Below are positions 9,525 to 50,083 of a DNA stretch of 50,083 nucleotides, in pieces (position 1 is the stretch's first letter; each line of letters starts with the position of its first letter). The notes beneath the pieces were generated by a model. The model ran no database searches, was not told the origin of the DNA, and was given only the letters and a program-made list of their open reading frames with translations. The position numbers and the translations under genes were made by a program. Source of the DNA: an uncultured Bacilli bacterium (GTDB taxonomy: Bacteria; Bacillota_I; Bacilli_A; RF39; UBA660); the NCBI GenBank assembly GCA_947594925.1, contig CANQEJ010000004.1:1-50083 (forward strand), read 5' to 3'.

Positions 9525-9567
9525 ATGTCAACCAAAAACTTTCTGCTTTACAACAAACCGGGGGGGG
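9525..9567 (+). repeat. 43-bp direct repeat, copy 1 (phase-variable promoter cassette)
   Basis: These 43 bases, from ATGTCAACC through the -35 box to the eighth G of the poly-G run, are identical to 50041-50083 at the right edge of the window. The base just before the repeat differs (A here, C there), so the visible left limit is sharp. About 21 bp upstream of the -35 is conserved too, more than a bare promoter needs. Confidence 0.95.
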
Positions 9568-9574
9568 GTATAAT
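9547..9574 (+). promoter_or_regulatory. Promoter with a G9 slippage tract in its spacer
   Basis: TTTACA (9547-9552) and a perfect TATAAT (9569-9574) are separated by 16 bp that end in nine consecutive G (9560-9568). Single-base changes in the run would alter the spacer to 15, 17 or more, and so change promoter strength. Long G runs slip during replication, which is the known basis of phase variation for several bacterial surface genes. Transcription would start near 9581 and lead to the surface protein at 9610. Confidence 0.85.
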
Positions 9575-9609: not shown

Positions 9610-11319
9610 ATGAAGGAAAGAAAACGTAAAATAACAACAATAACTATAATAGGAATAATGTTGATACTTGCAATAACAACATTTACTTATGCTATATGGA
9701 GTAGGACACATATTCAAACAGGAATAAATAAAAATACATATGCTTGTTTTGATATTAGTTATGAAGAAACAAATGGACAGGGAATAACTATGGAAAATGG
9801 TTTTCCTCAAAAAGATGAACAAGGTATGCAAAATGACCCATATGAAGTACAAATAGAAAATACATGTGATACAGTAACTTCATATAATGTAATACTAAAT
9901 AAAGAGCATAGTTCTGATTTAGCTGATGAACATTTAAAAATAGCTGTAGATAACGATTATAAATTATTATCTGCAGCAACTCAAACTGCTAAGAGAACAA
10001 TCCAAGATTTCACTAATGAAGCATCATACATAATAGGGACAGGAGTAGTAGGACCAAAACAAACAAAGACTGTCCAAATAAGAAGTTGGATGGATGAAAA
10101 GACATCTGAACAAGATGGAGAAAATAAAAGTTTTACTTTTAAGATTACTATTGAAAATGTTGTAGGAATAAACGGTGAAATACCTTTAAAAGATATGATA
10201 TTAGCTGCTCAGCCTATTAATGATGAAATAACAGATTTTTCTTTTGTTTTAAGTGATTGGAAAGAGAAAGAAGTTAATATTGATGCATCTAAAGGAATAT
10301 GTGTTGTGCAAGATTATAATGACATAGAGTGGAATGAAATAGATTATTTTACTTTTTATAATAAAGGTGTTTGTAATGTTAAAGATGTAGAAAATTATGT
10401 AAATTGGTATACATTTGGTAATGATATGCAAAATAGTAGTTCGGGAATTTATAGAATAAAGGAAGTAAATGAGACTACTATTACTAAAGTAGATTATCAA
10501 ACATATGTGCCAAAAGAAAAAGATGGACTGGTTAAAGCCCAAGATGACGATGGAACAAGTTATATTTATCGAGGAGTAATAAACAATAACTATATATCTT
10601 TTGCCAATAAATTATGGAGAATTGTTCGTATCAATGGTGATGGTAGTATCAGAATTATTGCTGATGAACAAATAGGAAAAAGTAAATTTAATAATGAATA
10701 TCAGGGGCAGAAATATGTTGGTTACACCTATGATAATAGTGAACATTGCACAAATGATAATCCATGTAAAAGTGAATATAATGGTTCAGCCACTTTTAAA
10801 AAATCTAATGACTGGGTTGATAGTGTTGTTAAAACATACTTAGAAAATTGGTATTATGAAAATTTAAAAGAAAATGATGATGAAATTGTTTTAACCACTT
10901 TCTGCAATGATACTACAATTGGTAATACGTATAGTTGGGGTATAACATATGGGGCGGGAGAAAGAATTGAGAAAAATAATACAGCAATGTTAAAATGTCC
11001 CGATACTGATAAAGACTATGGAGGAGTATATAAATTAAAAATTGGTTTGATTACAGCCGATGAACTATTATATGCAGCTATTCCTTATCGTCCTATTGAC
11101 GCAATTAAAGGTAATTATCTGCTTCATAATTATCAATGGTGGACAATGACCCCAGCGGCAATATCAAATAATGAAACTTATATTTATTATGGTTACGGTA
11201 CTTCAAGTGAAGATGATTATGCTACAGATTTATTTGAAATATATCCAGTTATCAACCTAAAATCAGACGTAACCGTAACGGGTGCCGGAACACAAGATAA
11301 TCCATATGTTGTACAATAA
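9610..11319 (+). CDS. Predicted phase-variable surface protein (SipW-type signal, TasA/camelysin-like N-terminus)
   Basis: The 569-residue product begins with a basic stretch and a membrane segment ending in TFTYAIWSRTHIQTG, resembling SipW-dependent signal sequences of TasA/camelysin-like proteins. Residues about 40-180 look like the matching beta-sandwich (FDISYEETNG, DPYEVQIENTCDT). The second half has wording common in surface proteins of gut Firmicutes: ANKLWRIVRINGDGSIRI, WWTMTP and the ending YPVINLKSDVTVTG...NPYVVQ, similar to DUF6273-type domains. There is no LPxTG sorting signal. The ATG at 9610 has GGAAGGA upstream. Expression is probably controlled by the poly-G promoter. The exact role (adhesin, fibre subunit or decoy antigen) is not known. 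Confidence 0.85.
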   Translation: MKERKRKITTITIIGIMLILAITTFTYAIWSRTHIQTGINKNTYACFDISYEETNGQGITMENGFPQKDEQGMQNDPYEVQIENTCDTVTSYNVILNKEHSSDLADEHLKIAVDNDYKLLSAATQTAKRTIQDFTNEASYIIGTGVVGPKQTKTVQIRSWMDEKTSEQDGENKSFTFKITIENVVGINGEIPLKDMILAAQPINDEITDFSFVLSDWKEKEVNIDASKGICVVQDYNDIEWNEIDYFTFYNKGVCNVKDVENYVNWYTFGNDMQNSSSGIYRIKEVNETTITKVDYQTYVPKEKDGLVKAQDDDGTSYIYRGVINNNYISFANKLWRIVRINGDGSIRIIADEQIGKSKFNNEYQGQKYVGYTYDNSEHCTNDNPCKSEYNGSATFKKSNDWVDSVVKTYLENWYYENLKENDDEIVLTTFCNDTTIGNTYSWGITYGAGERIEKNNTAMLKCPDTDKDYGGVYKLKIGLITADELLYAAIPYRPIDAIKGNYLLHNYQWWTMTPAAISNNETYIYYGYGTSSEDDYATDLFEIYPVINLKSDVTVTGAGTQDNPYVVQ

Positions 11320-11324
11320 TAAGT

Positions 11325-11442
11325 TATAAACGCGGAAGCGTTTATATAAATAGAAAGAGAAACTTTACCTTCGTTATGTAAGTATTCCTATTGTTTCTTT
11401 TTCTAATTAAGGAAGATAATTGTTTATATTATCTTCTTTTTA
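11325..11442 (+). terminator. Three successive hairpins, the last two terminator-like
   Basis: Right after the surface gene come: a 9-bp stem TATAAACGC/GCGTTTATA (11325-11346) with a GGAA tetraloop but no T run; a long-looped inverted repeat AGAAAGAGAAAC/GTTTCTTTTTCT (11352-11404); and GAAGATAAT/ATTATCTTC (11412-11436) with a T tail. Together they should isolate the switched gene from the T4SS operon. The remaining bases to 11595 hold no gene; TATACT at 11556-11561 is the best, but weak, candidate for the operon's -10 box. Confidence 0.65.
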
Positions 11443-11595: not shown

Positions 11596-12558
11596 GTGAA
11601 AAAAATGATAATATCTGTTCTTTTAATTAGTATAGTTTTTTTAAGCTTTACACCATCAGTATCTGCTGATACCACTTGTTTCTATAATAGTAGTGAAAGA
11701 AGTGGGGGATATTATGAATACGGTGAACTTACTATTAAAGACCCTTCTAATTCAAATGCTAAAGCTTCTTTTCAAAATTTGATGGGGCCAAAACTTGATT
11801 GCAGTGGTTGGGCAGATGCGGGAGTTTACGGAGCATGTGTTTTAACTTTCTTTATTGGTTGTGGCATTGCAGCAAATTTGTGGGCTGATAATATGTGTAG
11901 TTTTAGGGCTAATGATTTAAAAACGAACGATTTAAAAGATTATTCTTCAGCCGCTAGTAAAAATCTTAATACTAAATTATCATATATTGATGCTCAAGGA
12001 AAAAAACAAAGTGTAAATCTTCCTAATACTAATTTAGGCTCTGAGTGTCCTGAATATTTAGGTGTTGTTATTAGCGACTCTAGTGATGCATCTAATGTTC
12101 AAGTTTTTGCAGGAGATAGCAGTACAAAGAATTTTATTGATAATTATATAAATAGTAATCCTGATTATAATTATGTTATTTGGGGTTCAGAATTTGAAAG
12201 AACTGGCCATGATAGTTCAGATGGCAGTGGTGGGGGGTCTTCTCAAGATGACAGTAATTTAAATACATGTGTAGGTGTTTTAGGGAATAAAGTTAATGGA
12301 GAATATGAAAGTGGAAGTGTAGGGGCTTTATTACAACAGATTTTTGATTATATGAAAATGGCTGCTGTAATTTTAGTTTTTGTTTTTTCAGTAATCGATT
12401 ATGCTAAAGCAATTGCTGCCCAAAATGCTGATGCTTTTAAAAAAGCTAATGTTAATTTATTAAAAAGAATTATATTTGGTATTGTATTCTTCTTGATACC
12501 AACTTTAGTAAATCTTATTTTAAGTGTTATAGATTCTTCTACTTGTGGTATACAATAG
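11596..12558 (+). CDS. Signal-peptide protein with a VirB2/TrbC-like C-terminal pair of membrane helices
   Basis: The 320-residue product starts at GTG (11596) with AGGTGAT in front. It has a signal peptide (MIISVLLISIVFLSF, cut near VSA), an ectodomain with many cysteines and a Gly/Ser-rich linker (about residues 205-220), then two hydrophobic segments around a short basic loop (MAAVILVFVFSVIDYAKA and IIFGIVFFLIPTLVNLILS). That helix pair is the shape of VirB2/TrbC pilins, but the protein is about three times the usual pilin length because of the ectodomain. It opens the T4SS operon and lies 15 bp before the VirB6-like gene. The pilin assignment rests on position and topology. Confidence 0.7.
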   Translation: MKKMIISVLLISIVFLSFTPSVSADTTCFYNSSERSGGYYEYGELTIKDPSNSNAKASFQNLMGPKLDCSGWADAGVYGACVLTFFIGCGIAANLWADNMCSFRANDLKTNDLKDYSSAASKNLNTKLSYIDAQGKKQSVNLPNTNLGSECPEYLGVVISDSSDASNVQVFAGDSSTKNFIDNYINSNPDYNYVIWGSEFERTGHDSSDGSGGGSSQDDSNLNTCVGVLGNKVNGEYESGSVGALLQQIFDYMKMAAVILVFVFSVIDYAKAIAAQNADAFKKANVNLLKRIIFGIVFFLIPTLVNLILSVIDSSTCGIQ

Positions 12559-12573
12559 TTTGTAGGTGAGATA

Positions 12574-15147
12574 ATGAATTTAATTGATGTCGGTCAAGTT
12601 TGGGATGTTATTAATGGTTTATTTGTAACTATTGATTCCGTAATTTATAAATTTGTTGGCTGGTTATATGAATTATATATATTAATTAGTAGTGCCAGAA
12701 TATTCCAAACAGAAACTTTTGAATTATTTATAAATCGTATATATGTTATTTTAGGGGTTATTATGCTATTTTTCTTGGCATATACGATTTTAAAAAATAT
12801 TGCCGACCCAGATTCATTTGCTAAAGGTGAAAGCTCAATGGGAAAAATTATTTCCAACACCGTTATTTCTTTAGTTCTTATTGCTATCTTACCAACAATT
12901 TTTACTTTTTTATATCATGCTCAAGAAATTTTATTAAAAGAAAATATAATTGGAAGATTAATTTTAGGAAATTATTCGACTGCTTCAGAGACTTTACAAT
13001 TAACTTTTGAAGAAGATGTTTGTAATAATTTGAATACTTTAAAAGGCGATGGAAAATATACAGTTACTAATGGGACTTGTACAATTAGCTGGGAAGGTAA
13101 AAATACATCTAGTACAGTTGATTTAGCCGGAAATGCTATTGCTGTTGATATATTTACGGCCTTTTACTATCCGTATTTAACTGAGGGTGAAAATAGTGAG
13201 TATGAAGCAATGGAAGATGCTGCTAGAGCTCAAGCTGAAGCTTTAGGTGAGGACCCAGAATCATTTGTTAATAGTAATCAATTTTATAATGCGGATTTTC
13301 ATTATGACGAGTGGGAAGATGACCATCATAGTATGAACGCTAAAGAAGATTTTTTATATTCCAAAATAGCTAGTTATGACGCTTGTCATAATATGGCGGA
13401 TGGATATGTTTATGGTCCAACTGCTTCAGCTTGCGCTGCGGAAATGCTTGTTAATAATAAATTAAATAATCTTAGTAATGATATGCTACCTTTAAACTTT
13501 AAATCTGTAATGCAGTATGCTAAAACTACAGGGGATTTTAGTGGATTTAAATTACTTTCTAATTTTGTTTATGAAGACCGTATTCAATATTCTCTTATTA
13601 TATCTACGGCAGCTGGTTTGTTTGTTTGCTATATTTTTATTTCATATTGTATTGATATGGGTCTTAGAGCAGCAAAATTAGGTTTTGCCCAATTAGTTGC
13701 ACCGGTGCCAATACTTGCTCGTATTGTGCCATCTCAAAAGAAGATGTTTGATAGCTGGACTAAATTTACTTTGAGGTCTTATTTTGAAGTATTTGTCCGA
13801 ATTGCTATTATATTTTTAGGAATATTTATGATAACCCATTTGCCTAATGTTCAGGATATGTGGGCAGATTCAATCTTTGCTAATATTACCTTTATGTCTA
13901 TTAAAGGACCACTTATAATGGATATTAGTTCTGCTTCTTGGGGAACTAAATCTATTGCTCGTGTTGCTGTTATTATTGGTATTTTAATGTTTGTTAAACA
14001 AGCACCGAAATTAATTTCCGATGCTCTAGGCATTAGTATTAATACCGGTTCATTAAATATTCGCAACAAGTTAAAAGATATGGTAGGTGGCGAACACGTA
14101 GTCAGAGGTTTAAATGCGGTTGGAGCTCTTCCTGGCCGAGGTATTGGAGCTATTAAAGGTGGCCTTGGTAGTATGTGGGCAGCCAATGTTCATGGTAACG
14201 GTAAAGTACCTTTGAAAACAGCCTTTGCGCATGGTATGAAACAAGGCTGGAAAAATCCGAAGAAGAGCTTTAATAAGAACTTTAGAGAAACTTATGGTGA
14301 TATCACCGGAGATGTTAAGTCTAAACCTTCATTAATTAACGAAGGACCAACACTTGCAAGTCGAGTAACTAATAAAATTGATAAAGATTACAAAAAGGCG
14401 GTTGGAAAAGGATATACTGCTGAACTTGAAAAAGATGTTGCTAATTTTGAAGCAACTGACCCAAGATTTACAAGAGCTATTGAAGCTAAACGTAGTGAAT
14501 ATCGCGAAAAAATTAGAGAAGTTCAAAACAGTGAACAATTTAAAAATATTAAACAATCTGAACGTACTCGTCTAGAAAGAGAATTCCAAGACAATGAAGG
14601 TTCGCGTATTGCTAAACGTATGAAAGATTATGAGGATAGTCAGGAATATCGTTATGCTAGAACAATGGCTTATCGTAGAGCTGAAACGGAAGTTCGGGAG
14701 GAAGCAGCTAGAAATGGTGAAACTTTAAATGCTATGGAAATTCAAGAAAGAGCAAGACGCAAGGAAACCGATTATTTAATTGATAGTTTGAAACAAATGA
14801 ATTCCGAAAATGCTCGTCAATATATGAAAGATAAAGACCGTCGTGATAATATTGCTCAAGAACTTGACCGTAAAGCTAATGAAAATGCTATTAACTCTAT
14901 GAGACAATCTAATGTTGAATATAGAAAAGCTTTAGAAAATGTTAATAATACTACTGCTATTAGAGCAGAAGTTACAGAAAATGTTAGAAGAGAAATTACA
15001 GCTAATCCAACATCAGCAGCCGATTCTCGTTATGTTCGTAACTTAGATGAACTTGAAAATAAAGGTAAGATTACTCGTAAGAAAGAATTTGAAGATAACT
15101 GGACAGATTTATGGAACAAAACTTACAATGAAAAGAATAAGAAGTAG
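12574..15147 (+). CDS. VirB6/TrbL-like polytopic channel protein of the T4SS
   Basis: VirB6/TrbL proteins form the inner-membrane channel core of type IV secretion machines. This 857-residue product has several membrane helices in its first 490 residues (for example YVILGVIMLFFLAYTILKNI and IAIIFLGIFMITHL), with an extracytoplasmic region between the second and third clusters. A short Gly-rich stretch follows, then about 350 charged residues rich in Arg, Glu, Lys and Asn that should form a cytoplasmic coiled coil. This large tail is not part of the minimal family and may contact the ATPases or substrates. It sits between the pilin candidate and PrgI, the standard order in Gram-positive systems. 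Confidence 0.8.
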   Translation: MNLIDVGQVWDVINGLFVTIDSVIYKFVGWLYELYILISSARIFQTETFELFINRIYVILGVIMLFFLAYTILKNIADPDSFAKGESSMGKIISNTVISLVLIAILPTIFTFLYHAQEILLKENIIGRLILGNYSTASETLQLTFEEDVCNNLNTLKGDGKYTVTNGTCTISWEGKNTSSTVDLAGNAIAVDIFTAFYYPYLTEGENSEYEAMEDAARAQAEALGEDPESFVNSNQFYNADFHYDEWEDDHHSMNAKEDFLYSKIASYDACHNMADGYVYGPTASACAAEMLVNNKLNNLSNDMLPLNFKSVMQYAKTTGDFSGFKLLSNFVYEDRIQYSLIISTAAGLFVCYIFISYCIDMGLRAAKLGFAQLVAPVPILARIVPSQKKMFDSWTKFTLRSYFEVFVRIAIIFLGIFMITHLPNVQDMWADSIFANITFMSIKGPLIMDISSASWGTKSIARVAVIIGILMFVKQAPKLISDALGISINTGSLNIRNKLKDMVGGEHVVRGLNAVGALPGRGIGAIKGGLGSMWAANVHGNGKVPLKTAFAHGMKQGWKNPKKSFNKNFRETYGDITGDVKSKPSLINEGPTLASRVTNKIDKDYKKAVGKGYTAELEKDVANFEATDPRFTRAIEAKRSEYREKIREVQNSEQFKNIKQSERTRLEREFQDNEGSRIAKRMKDYEDSQEYRYARTMAYRRAETEVREEAARNGETLNAMEIQERARRKETDYLIDSLKQMNSENARQYMKDKDRRDNIAQELDRKANENAINSMRQSNVEYRKALENVNNTTAIRAEVTENVRREITANPTSAADSRYVRNLDELENKGKITRKKEFEDNWTDLWNKTYNEKNKK

Positions 15148-15158
15148 GAGGTTAGTAT

Positions 15159-15470
15159 ATGAATAATTATTTGATACCGGCAAACTCGAAAAAGTCGCAA
15201 CTTATTTTAGGGTTCTTTAATAAGATTGATTTATTTGGAATATTTCTACCTGGTATAGGTTTGACGGTCTTTTTGCTTTTTGCTTTTAAATCTAATAATG
15301 TGATTATTACAGTTTTGGATTTACTACCGGCGCTAATTGCTGCTTTCCTTGTTATGCCGGTGCCAAATTATCATAATATGTTTACGCTTTTAAGTAATGT
15401 TCATACTTATTTTAGCCGTAGAAGAAAGTATTATTGGAGAGGATGGTGTGCAAATGGCAAAGACCACTAG
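15159..15470 (+). CDS. PrgI family (VirB3-like) T4SS protein
   Basis: The 103-residue product has the features of the PrgI family that precedes VirB4 in Gram-positive conjugation systems: an IPANSKKS start, two short membrane helices, the conserved MPVPNYHN motif, and the ending RRRKYYWRGW. PrgI is thought to play the part of VirB3, recruiting VirB4 to the membrane. A TAGGAGG site precedes the ATG. Its 3' end overlaps the start of the next gene by about 17 bases. Confidence 0.88.
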   Translation: MNNYLIPANSKKSQLILGFFNKIDLFGIFLPGIGLTVFLLFAFKSNNVIITVLDLLPALIAAFLVMPVPNYHNMFTLLSNVHTYFSRRRKYYWRGWCANGKDH

Positions 15471-16011
15471 TATTTCAAAGTATTCAGAAGATTGGGTACC
15501 TGTAAAAAGTATTATGAACGGTATGATAGAACTAGAAAATGGAAGCTATGTTGCCGGAGTTAAAATTGAATCTAAAGATATCTTTATTATGGATGCCCAA
15601 GCTCAGAATAATGTTATATTCGGGATGAGAAATTTCTATAATGCTATTGATTATGAATTTTGGTTAGTAATTGCGGATAGACCAGTAGATATTAATATTT
15701 ATCTTTCGCAGTTACAAGTATTATATTCGCATGCAGTTAATCCAGAAGTTCGGAAATTAATTGACCAAGATATTAATAAAGCTAACCTTTTTATGAGTAA
15801 TGAAATGAACGTAGTGGATACTGAATATTACATTTTATTTAAAGAGAAAAAACAAGAAATTATTCAAAAGAGAATTCATAATTTAATAACTAATTTAGCT
15901 AATGCTGGAGTTAATTCCGCACAGGCATCAAATTCCGATTTGAGAATGCTTTTAGATAATTTCTTAAATGGGGGAGCCACGACAAGTTTTGGGACGGTGA
16001 TGAGTTCATGA
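15454..16011 (+). CDS. VirB4 N-terminal half (separate gene)
   Basis: This product of about 185 residues corresponds to the N-terminal, membrane-proximal part of VirB4/TrsE-type ATPases (VPVKSIMNGMIELENGSYVAG, then a helical segment ending SNSDLRMLLDNFL). It contains no ATPase motif. The ATG at 15454 and an in-frame GTG at 15448 are both possible: GGAGAGG (15436-15442) lies 5 bases from the GTG and 11 from the ATG. It ends at TGA inside the sequence ATGA, which also starts the second half. Most VirB4 homologues are one chain of about 800 residues, and the two halves here add up to that. Confidence 0.75.
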   Translation: MAKTTSISKYSEDWVPVKSIMNGMIELENGSYVAGVKIESKDIFIMDAQAQNNVIFGMRNFYNAIDYEFWLVIADRPVDINIYLSQLQVLYSHAVNPEVRKLIDQDINKANLFMSNEMNVVDTEYYILFKEKKQEIIQKRIHNLITNLANAGVNSAQASNSDLRMLLDNFLNGGATTSFGTVMSS

Positions 16012-31567: not shown

Positions 31568-32650
31568 ATGGAAAAGAAAAATGAACTTGCAAAAGAAGAA
31601 AGAACAATATTTATTGTTCTAGCTATTATTGTTTTAGTAGCTATAGGGGTTTTAGTAACTTGGTATTTTACTAAAGATAAAGATTTAGAAGAAAAAGACA
31701 AAGTTACAAAGGATAAGACAGTGGAAACTAAGAAGAAAGATACTAGCGATTTAGATGAAGATTCTGATTATACTTATACACCAACTGATAAAGTAGTAGT
31801 AAGCGATAATGTTGTGGAAGAAGAAGTAGAAGTTGTCAATGTTGCCGAAGTTGCTCAAGCAGAAACTGGTAGTATTGTAAATGATGAATCATATGATTAT
31901 AGAATACCTTTTTATCTAGTAAGTGATACAGTAGCATTTGATAATGCTGTTACAATGGATGAAACAGGAGAAATTGTTAATATTAATGAAGGTAAAATTA
32001 TTAAAGTAAAAGGTTATAAAGATTATACGGAAGATATGATTACTCCAGAAGAAATTGATGTAACTGGTAATTATATTATTAATGAAGATAATACAATAAC
32101 ATTTACTGCTAATGGTGTATACGGAATTGTTATTCAAAATAGTGATGGAAAAGAACATGAAGTATATGTCAGAGTATACGATAATCAACAATTTAATATT
32201 ATGTCTAATTCATTTGTTGATTTAATTTTAGAAGACTTACAACCTATTAATTCATATGATGCTAATAAATATACTGAATTTATGAACGCTTTATATGATT
32301 ATAAAAATTTTGTAGGTAGTGATAATGATAAGAGAGTAGCTTTTGGTAATTTAATGAGTTTATTCGGTGAATTATTAGAAACTTATAATCCTAATGTTAC
32401 ATATGGTACTGGTAAAGCCGAAGAAGATAAAGAAAATGAAGTTACTTATGGAACCGGAGGAGCAAGTGAAGGAACTGTTCAAACTGTTGTAACATATGGT
32501 ACAGGTGGTAGTGAAGCTACACTAAATGAAGTTACATATGGTACTGGTAAAGCCGAAGAAGAAATAGTTAATTCAGTTATTTATGGTACTGGAAAAGGAC
32601 CTGATGAAGGTAGCAATAATATAACATATGGTACGGGAATTCCGGCCTAA
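31568..32650 (+). CDS. Membrane-anchored protein with six YGTG repeats
   Basis: The 360-residue product has an N-terminal membrane helix (about 14-35: IFIVLAIIVLVAIGVLVTWYF), an acidic linker, a central extracellular region and a tail with six copies of a short repeat centred on YGTG (for example VTYGTGKAEED, VTYGTGGASEG, VIYGTGKGPDEG). The same TYGTGGAS sequence occurs once near the C-terminus of the class A PBP at 44335-47322. Start at 31568 is set by GGGAGGG. I recognise no family for the central part (FTANGVYGIVIQNSDGKEHE looks beta-rich). Probably a wall-associated protein; the function of the repeat is unknown. Confidence 0.8.
   Translation: MEKKNELAKEERTIFIVLAIIVLVAIGVLVTWYFTKDKDLEEKDKVTKDKTVETKKKDTSDLDEDSDYTYTPTDKVVVSDNVVEEEVEVVNVAEVAQAETGSIVNDESYDYRIPFYLVSDTVAFDNAVTMDETGEIVNINEGKIIKVKGYKDYTEDMITPEEIDVTGNYIINEDNTITFTANGVYGIVIQNSDGKEHEVYVRVYDNQQFNIMSNSFVDLILEDLQPINSYDANKYTEFMNALYDYKNFVGSDNDKRVAFGNLMSLFGELLETYNPNVTYGTGKAEEDKENEVTYGTGGASEGTVQTVVTYGTGGSEATLNEVTYGTGKAEEEIVNSVIYGTGKGPDEGSNNITYGTGIPA
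32396..32562 (+). repeat. Direct repeats encoding the YGTG units
   Basis: 32396-32427 and 32531-32562 are identical over 32 bp (starting GTTACATATGGTACTGG), 135 bp apart and in frame; four more diverged YGTG units surround them. Recombination between them would remove or add 45 codons without a frameshift. Confidence 0.85.
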
Positions 32651-49403: not shown

Positions 49404-49994
49404 ATGAATTTACCAAATAAAATTACTGTAAGTAGAATAATATTAGCAGTTTTAATATTAATATTATTAATATTTCCTTGGTATCAAGTAGGAATTGAAT
49501 TTCCCAAATATACTGTAGGAACCGTAATAGTAGATTTAAAATATATTATTGCTGCTGTTATGTTTATTATTGCTTCTTTAACTGATTTTTTAGATGGGCA
49601 TATTGCTCGTAAAAATAATTTAGTAACTGATTTTGGTAAAGTCATGGATGCTATCGCTGATAAAGTTTTAGTTAATGGATTACTTGTTATCCTTGCTTGT
49701 AATGGTTTTGTTTCAATTGTAGTACCTGTAGTTATTATTACCAGAGATATCTTTGTAGATTCTATTAAAATGATTGCTGGAGAGAAAAAGGGAGCTGTTG
49801 GAGCAAGTATAGCAGGAAAATTAAAGACAATTTGTATGATGGTTGGTTTAAGTTTTGTTTTAATTTATAATTTACCATTTGAATTATGGAATATTCGTTT
49901 TGCTGATATATTAATTCTAGCAGCTACAGTATTATCAGTAATATCTGGTTGTCAATATTACTTAGATAATAAAGATATATTTAAAGATAGATAA
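49404..49994 (+). CDS. pgsA: CDP-diacylglycerol--glycerol-3-phosphate 3-phosphatidyltransferase
   Basis: PgsA makes phosphatidylglycerol phosphate at the membrane. The 196-residue product has the CDP-alcohol phosphotransferase motif from DGHIAR to DAIAD (D-G-x2-A-R-x8-G-x3-D-x3-D) and several membrane helices, with the family start NLPNKITVSRI. A TAGGAGTTG site is present 14 bases after the rodZ-like gene. Confidence 0.95.
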   Translation: MNLPNKITVSRIILAVLILILLIFPWYQVGIEFPKYTVGTVIVDLKYIIAAVMFIIASLTDFLDGHIARKNNLVTDFGKVMDAIADKVLVNGLLVILACNGFVSIVVPVVIITRDIFVDSIKMIAGEKKGAVGASIAGKLKTICMMVGLSFVLIYNLPFELWNIRFADILILAATVLSVISGCQYYLDNKDIFKDR

Positions 49995-49996
49995 TG

Positions 49997-50022
49997 AACA
50001 CTAAATTAATTAGTGTTTTTTT
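49997..50022 (+). terminator. Rho-independent terminator of pgsA
   Basis: AACACTAA (49997-50004) and TTAGTGTT (50010-50017) followed by T run. Confidence 0.8.
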
Positions 50023-50040: not shown

Positions 50041-50083
50041 ATGTCAACCAAAAACTTTCTGCTTTACAACAAACCGGGGGGGG
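50041..50083 (+). repeat. 43-bp direct repeat, copy 2, with start of another poly-G promoter
   Basis: Identical to 9525-9567. It contains TTTACA (50063-50068) and at least eight G (50076-50083), then the window ends within the G run. The -10 box and the gene it should drive lie beyond the edge. It follows the pgsA terminator, so it is again the beginning of a new transcription unit on the plus strand. Confidence 0.9.

Follow-up and report, generated by a model that had tools for sequence, protein, structure and literature searches.

Some 38 loci of a genome from an uncultured Bacilli bacterium carry one and the same promoter cassette, in which a poly-G tract lies between the -35 and -10 boxes. 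Very probably, and as the best explanation of the data, these cassettes are phase-variable promoters that control a family of lectin-like proteins, part of which is edited by a diversity-generating retroelement (DGR). The window, that is, the whole stretch of 50,083 nt analysed here, corresponds to one contig (C4) of a MAG of 1,040,717 bases in 58 contigs, 89% complete; the edge of the window is therefore a contig end.

A repeat search of the window recovered what had been claimed, 43 identical bases about 40 kb apart: the 43-nt repeat is exact in both copies, at 9525-9567 and 50041-50083 of the forward strand, 40,516 bp from start to start. The first copy belongs to a complete cassette (9525-9574, by direct reading and by the alignment of all copies), with a -35 box TTTACA at 9547-9552, seven further nucleotides (9553-9559), a G9 tract (9560-9568) and a -10 box TATAAT (9569-9574), the whole spacer being 16 nt long. 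In the second, 22 conserved nucleotides are followed by the -35 box TTTACA (50063-50068), the spacer sequence ACAAACC (50069-50075) and a G8 tract (50076-50083), within which the contig stops. Its -10 box and gene are thus missing from the assembly, and no orphan gene body could be assigned to it. Just upstream, on the same strand, a CDP-alcohol phosphatidyltransferase (PgsA-like) gene (49404-49994; PF01066, E 2.5e-32) is separated from the cassette by a terminator-like hairpin, ACACTAA..TTAGTGT followed by a T run (49998-50022, direct reading). The PgsA-like gene is not in the switch, and its presence shows that the edge cassette sits between unrelated genes.

The complete copy precedes, again on the forward strand, the gene of a 569-aa family member (9610-11319), which was assigned from its ORF, the family alignments, the family fold and the comparison of its variable stretch with template repeats. 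The protein has the layout of an N-terminal anchor or signal helix, a beta domain and a C-terminal C-type-lectin-like domain. A hairpin with a 9-bp stem and a GGAA loop follows its stop codon (11325-11346, forward strand); aligned 3' flanks indicate that this form is common to most members, and nearly all family genes end with a hairpin, whose loop is often of the GNRA type, followed by a terminator-like stem. Tandem family genes were observed at C39_L, C12, C13, C19 and C17, one gene ending just before the next poly-G cassette. Two other features of the window were recorded: directly after the family gene, positions 11596-16011 hold a run of membrane and secretion-type ORFs, which on inspection might be a cluster for conjugation or type IV secretion, and at 32396-32604 two 74-nt copies, 135 bp apart and 81% identical, encode a VTYGTGK-like repeat.

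The original prediction had taken the repeat for a multi-copy cassette placed ahead of a family of surface-type genes, and had proposed a genome search with its first 35 bases. With up to 3 mismatches allowed, this search gave 32 matches in the genome, compared to 0 for the reversed control, so that the repeat is not due to chance. With the 20-nt core CTTTACAAYAAACCGGGGGG, 41 placements were found; once three duplicates were subtracted (the two sides of one broken locus, at overlapping contig ends), 38 distinct loci remained, far from the mere two copies that would have spoken against a family. The assembly continues past the tract at 28 of the 41 placements and ends inside it at the other 13; every one of the 28 retains the -10 box and has the layout TTTACA-N7-G7..9-TATAAT. 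A search with the downstream half of the cassette, which runs from the -10 box up to the start codon, gave 26 matches in the genome. Mean pairwise identity between copies rose from 0.34 in the flank (31 to 60 nt above the -35 box) to 0.90 in the core and to 0.99 over the 55 nt after the tract, and the start codon ATG lies 41 nt past the tract in every copy reaching that far. Twenty complete genes were found behind the cassette (19 here and one in Lapin-007 bin28, an uncultured Bacilli MAG, from rabbit by its name, which has three cassette copies), and all belong to one family, of 498 to 587 aa.

Dispersed copies and the abrupt drop in similarity upstream are also what one would expect of a mobile-element end, or of a recombination site through which gene bodies are moved or exchanged, the promoter being incidental; that the cassette is homogenised in a single species likewise points to recombination or gene conversion. 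We consider this explanation highly improbable, since every cassette copy faces a family gene at the constant distance given above, since inverted repeats of at least 30 nt are absent from the window, and since incidental inspection revealed no recombinase linked to cassette copies. Gene conversion between copies may well operate in addition to phase variation. Two further candidates were set aside: switching by inverted repeats, as no such repeat of at least 30 nt is present within the window, and an origin as phage cargo, which is without support as the 20-nt core was absent from the viral contigs searched.

The length of the tract varies between loci: among the 28 placements with a -10 box, 14 have G9, 11 have G8 and 3 have G7, corresponding to spacers of 16 nt, 15 nt and 13 to 14 nt, respectively. 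No tract of G10 or longer was seen in the cassettes of this type (type A). Between otherwise near-identical copies, it is the tract length that differs. Assembly breaks are found at the same place, as the original prediction had thought possible: the last tract is exactly G8 at twelve contig ends, that of the window among them, and G9 at one more. An exact overlap of 77 bases, such as an assembly graph with k=77 would leave, is shared by four pairs of contig ends. In three of the four overlaps the shared 77-mer holds unique upstream flank and ends at G8, and the continuation past it is a T from C48 to C8, and a ninth G from C32 to C34 and from C49 to C15. A graph splits at a unique 77-mer only when a second path leads out of it, which implies that the sample probably contains both G8 and longer alleles of the same locus, and we infer from these branches that slippage takes place within the population. 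The G8 branches could alternatively stem from homopolymer slippage during sequencing or PCR, or from a mixture of strains. Contig breaks at the poly-G switches would explain why genomes of this kind assemble badly.

A whole-genome count of runs of at least 8 G was carried out. Out of 45 such runs, 39 belong to the cassette. Two correspond to a second promoter type, TTGCAAATTACACTAC-G9-TATAAT, placed before two further family genes (on C11 and C17), and two are promoter-like (C7:26320 and C22:6773-6780), ahead of proteins without a confident family. The latter proteins are small (255 aa and 102 aa), and by eye they resemble WXG100/LXG-type secretion substrates; for both, Pfam gave no confident family. 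One run, a G10 within the coding region of a family gene (C13:23670-23679), is out of frame as assembled, and has the look of a translational switch within this family. The last one, a G9 on C49 (2995-3003), stands shortly before the start codon of an unrelated gene, whose ORF by eye is like a 2-hydroxyacyl-CoA dehydratase component, and it may affect the translation start. It follows from this tally that long G tracts are almost confined, in this genome, to positions of potential expression control.

The cassette was then placed in the context of related genomes. The 20-nt core had no match in 59 relatives, 8 of which are of the same genus. Poly-G sites of another sequence are nevertheless present in the genus: G7-TATAAT sites were found in 6 of the 8 other species, at 1 to 21 per genome, compared to none of 31 genomes outside the genus. 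Their flanks are unlike those of the present genome, with mostly TTGACA upstream and tracts of G7 to G11, and the spacer at G9 sites is 18 to 19 nt, compared to 16 nt here. Many of these sites precede family genes, and others precede different secreted-type proteins, so that in the genus the switch extends beyond the lectin family; one of the genes concerned (among L223, L228 and L229) has a type IV pilin-like N-terminus. The design is conserved in the genus, and each species seems to have its own homogenised cassette sequence.

This comparison bears on a simpler explanation, namely that a conserved promoter, constitutive or controlled by a regulator, was copied along with the genes, that the G tract is a mere spacer, and that the G8 breaks are homopolymer errors of sequencing or PCR. 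The near identity of copies in the core and downstream of it is in its favour, as conservation of the tract could then reflect recent copying. It is the length of the tract, however, that distinguishes near-identical copies; in sister species the flanks are unrelated, yet a G7-G11 tract is likewise placed between both boxes; and, in a genome of low GC content, long G tracts hardly occur outside such promoter positions. We therefore regard this explanation as unlikely, and retain phase variation of the poly-G promoters.

The nature of the proteins was addressed next. A family profile had 39 matches in this genome, and 14 to 38 in each of 8 sister species. Neither NCBIfam nor Pfam names the family: at E <= 0.1, NCBIfam yielded just three unrelated single matches among 32 members, and Pilin_N was matched weakly by ten members (best E 1.3e-4). 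The SipW-type signal of the original prediction could not be confirmed, no such NCBIfam model having matched any of the 32 members. In the family alignment, the C-termini are variable between the motifs W-x-MSP and PVINL. A fold search with the full-length model mainly returned matches to the N-terminal beta domain, and the C-terminal domain was therefore folded separately. For the 268 C-terminal residues of the C11 protein, the fold was predicted with a pLDDT of 96 and a pTM of 0.93, and the best structural match was PDB 9qa6 (Z 14.1, 3.1 A, 182 residues, 19% identity), the N-terminal domain of the Thomasclavelia ramosa IgA peptidase, which is C-type lectin-like according to its authors (PMC12237041). 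Weaker matches of the fold search were mostly lectin-like domains as well, while a profile search of solved structures with this domain gave no match; the fold search alone succeeded. The C-terminal domain is thus predicted to be a C-type-lectin-like domain. In the predicted model the N-terminus consists of a long helix, then the beta domain, a layout consistent with membrane anchoring. Surface display and ligand binding would be the expected properties of such proteins.

A single reverse transcriptase (RT) match was found in the genome, on contig C16. It has the motifs GLPIGNLSSQ (SSQ) and YVRYMDDF, scores above the cut-off of RVT_1 and matches the phrog RT at E 2.5e-83; by motifs and matches it is a DGR-type RT with the SQ motif. 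Among solved structures, 8ub7 is by far its best relative (E 3.4e-25), and we take this to be the DGR reverse transcriptase of phage BPP-1. Directly before the RT gene lies an ORF resembling the accessory protein Avd, with matches to phrog Avd at E 1e-9 and to Pfam bAvd at E 2.6e-5, the latter not reaching the cut-off that Pfam sets; both RT and Avd are intact. One template repeat, with 16 AAC or AAT codons, is located 3' of the second family gene on C17, and two others are located 3' of family genes on C8 and C11. In these units the template sits between the stop codon and the 3' hairpin; the hairpins that follow the stop codons of family genes are candidates for the hairpin that retrohoming requires besides an IMH. 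The promoter of the template-bearing gene is the TTTACA cassette on C8, and the second poly-G type on C11 and C17.

Comparison of variable regions (VR) with their own templates revealed differences mainly at template adenines. The C11 VR differs from its own template at 14 of 37 adenines and at none of the 65 other bases (Fisher P = 1e-7). Differences were found at 19 of 38 adenines and 4 of 64 other bases for C17, and at 19 of 37 adenines and 7 of 65 other bases for C8. The VR is C-terminal, about 60 nt ahead of the stop codon, and within the predicted C-type-lectin-like fold. A gene on C40 is devoid of a template of its own; against the C17 template it differs at 19 of 36 adenines and 3 of 63 other bases, a pattern that would be as expected for retrohoming in trans. 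RT and templates are on separate contigs, a single locus being usual, not universal, for a DGR, and a template adjoining the RT was ruled out over the 13 kb scanned around it, where both strands gave chance-level matches only. Activity of DGRs in trans has been reported (PMC10907252). A draft MAG may contain misplaced contigs, although the RT does have a homologue, 77% identical, in a sister species. The variable stretch of the 569-aa gene of the window has no detectable link to any of the three template repeats, and the same was found overall for about 19 of 31 variable regions, including this one; the DGR therefore accounts for part of the family only.

Is the DGR a relic of past mutagenesis, the phase-variable promoters alone being active today? 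We hold this to be possible but doubtful. Most variable regions have drifted away from the templates, and some sister species have a broken RT homologue or none: the homologues are interrupted or split in G004 (C13), G007 (C45) and G002 (C27), and were not found in G003 and G008, which makes repeated loss of the DGR within the genus possible. On the other hand, RT and Avd are intact in this genome, the C11 VR and its template differ at adenines only, and the flanks of the three templates are 98 to 100% identical. These observations speak against a relic.

The mechanism that we propose is as follows. Replication slippage in the G7-G9 tract would alter the spacer between the -35 and -10 boxes, and hence promoter strength. 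For sigma-70-type promoters the optimal spacer is near 17 nt, which would favour G9 to G10 as the ON length here; at the sister-species sites, G9 gives a longer spacer. Each of the approximately 38 copies would precede one membrane-anchored protein with a C-terminal C-type-lectin-like domain. The single pair of Avd and RT, encoded on another contig, most likely serves the three templates in trans, and would rewrite, in the variable loops of a subset of the family, as many as 16 AAC/AAT codons. Slippage would thus set which lectins are displayed, and the DGR what some of them bind; with some 38 independent switches, many lectin combinations could arise across the population. Cassette, copy number, tract variation between loci, protein family, pairs of template and variable region, and RT with Avd are all shown by the sequence, as is, by prediction, the C-type-lectin-like fold; from these we infer switching of expression, live retrohoming, surface display and ligand binding.

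With less confidence, we lean towards a broader proposal, a repertoire in two layers: about 38 lectin-like genes, each with its own slipping switch, and a subset hypermutated by one trans-acting DGR that uses dispersed templates. A bacterium of about 1 Mb would in this way both pick and edit its binding surface, with a design kept genus-wide and a cassette specific to the species. Tract slippage and mutagenic retrohoming, the two best-known local generators of diversity, would then be joined in one family and one small genome. This makes it a candidate system, in uncultured Bacilli, for adhesion, phage avoidance or immune avoidance, and it makes testable whether genes that are silent (OFF) serve as a reserve for editing by the DGR.

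Both mechanisms are individually known; their combination in one family and one small genome was not found reported, and a literature search revealed no report combining a DGR with homopolymer phase variation, an absence that is weak evidence. Mycoplasma surface protein families, such as vlp of Mycoplasma hyorhinis, are phase-variable, each gene being placed behind a homopolymer-controlled promoter. The present case is similar in its small genome, its surface protein family and its one such promoter per gene, whereas the vlp products are lipoproteins and the tract is a poly-A; to our knowledge, no DGR is known in a vlp-type setting. In porA of Neisseria meningitidis, a poly-G tract of 9 to 11 G between the -35 and -10 boxes alters expression with its length (PMC3639595). 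The position of the tract, before a surface-type gene, is the same here; however, porA is one gene, compared to about 38 loci of one family with shorter tracts, in an unrelated bacterium.

In Thiohalocapsa PB-PSB1, the targets of trans-acting DGRs are putative conflict sensors, and, as here, variable regions are present at several loci, some of them matched by a remote template at all non-adenine sites (PMC10907252); the paper does not use the terms phase variation or promoter. Unlike the Thomasclavelia ramosa IgA peptidase, a secreted metallopeptidase, the present family has no peptidase domain (PMC12237041). The C-type lectin fold is the usual fold of DGR targets, and as in cellular targets the variable region lies at the C-terminus of a membrane-type protein, within its C-type-lectin-like domain (PMC8144416). 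In contrast to those, the targets described here are part of a large paralogous family, with a slipping promoter for each gene.
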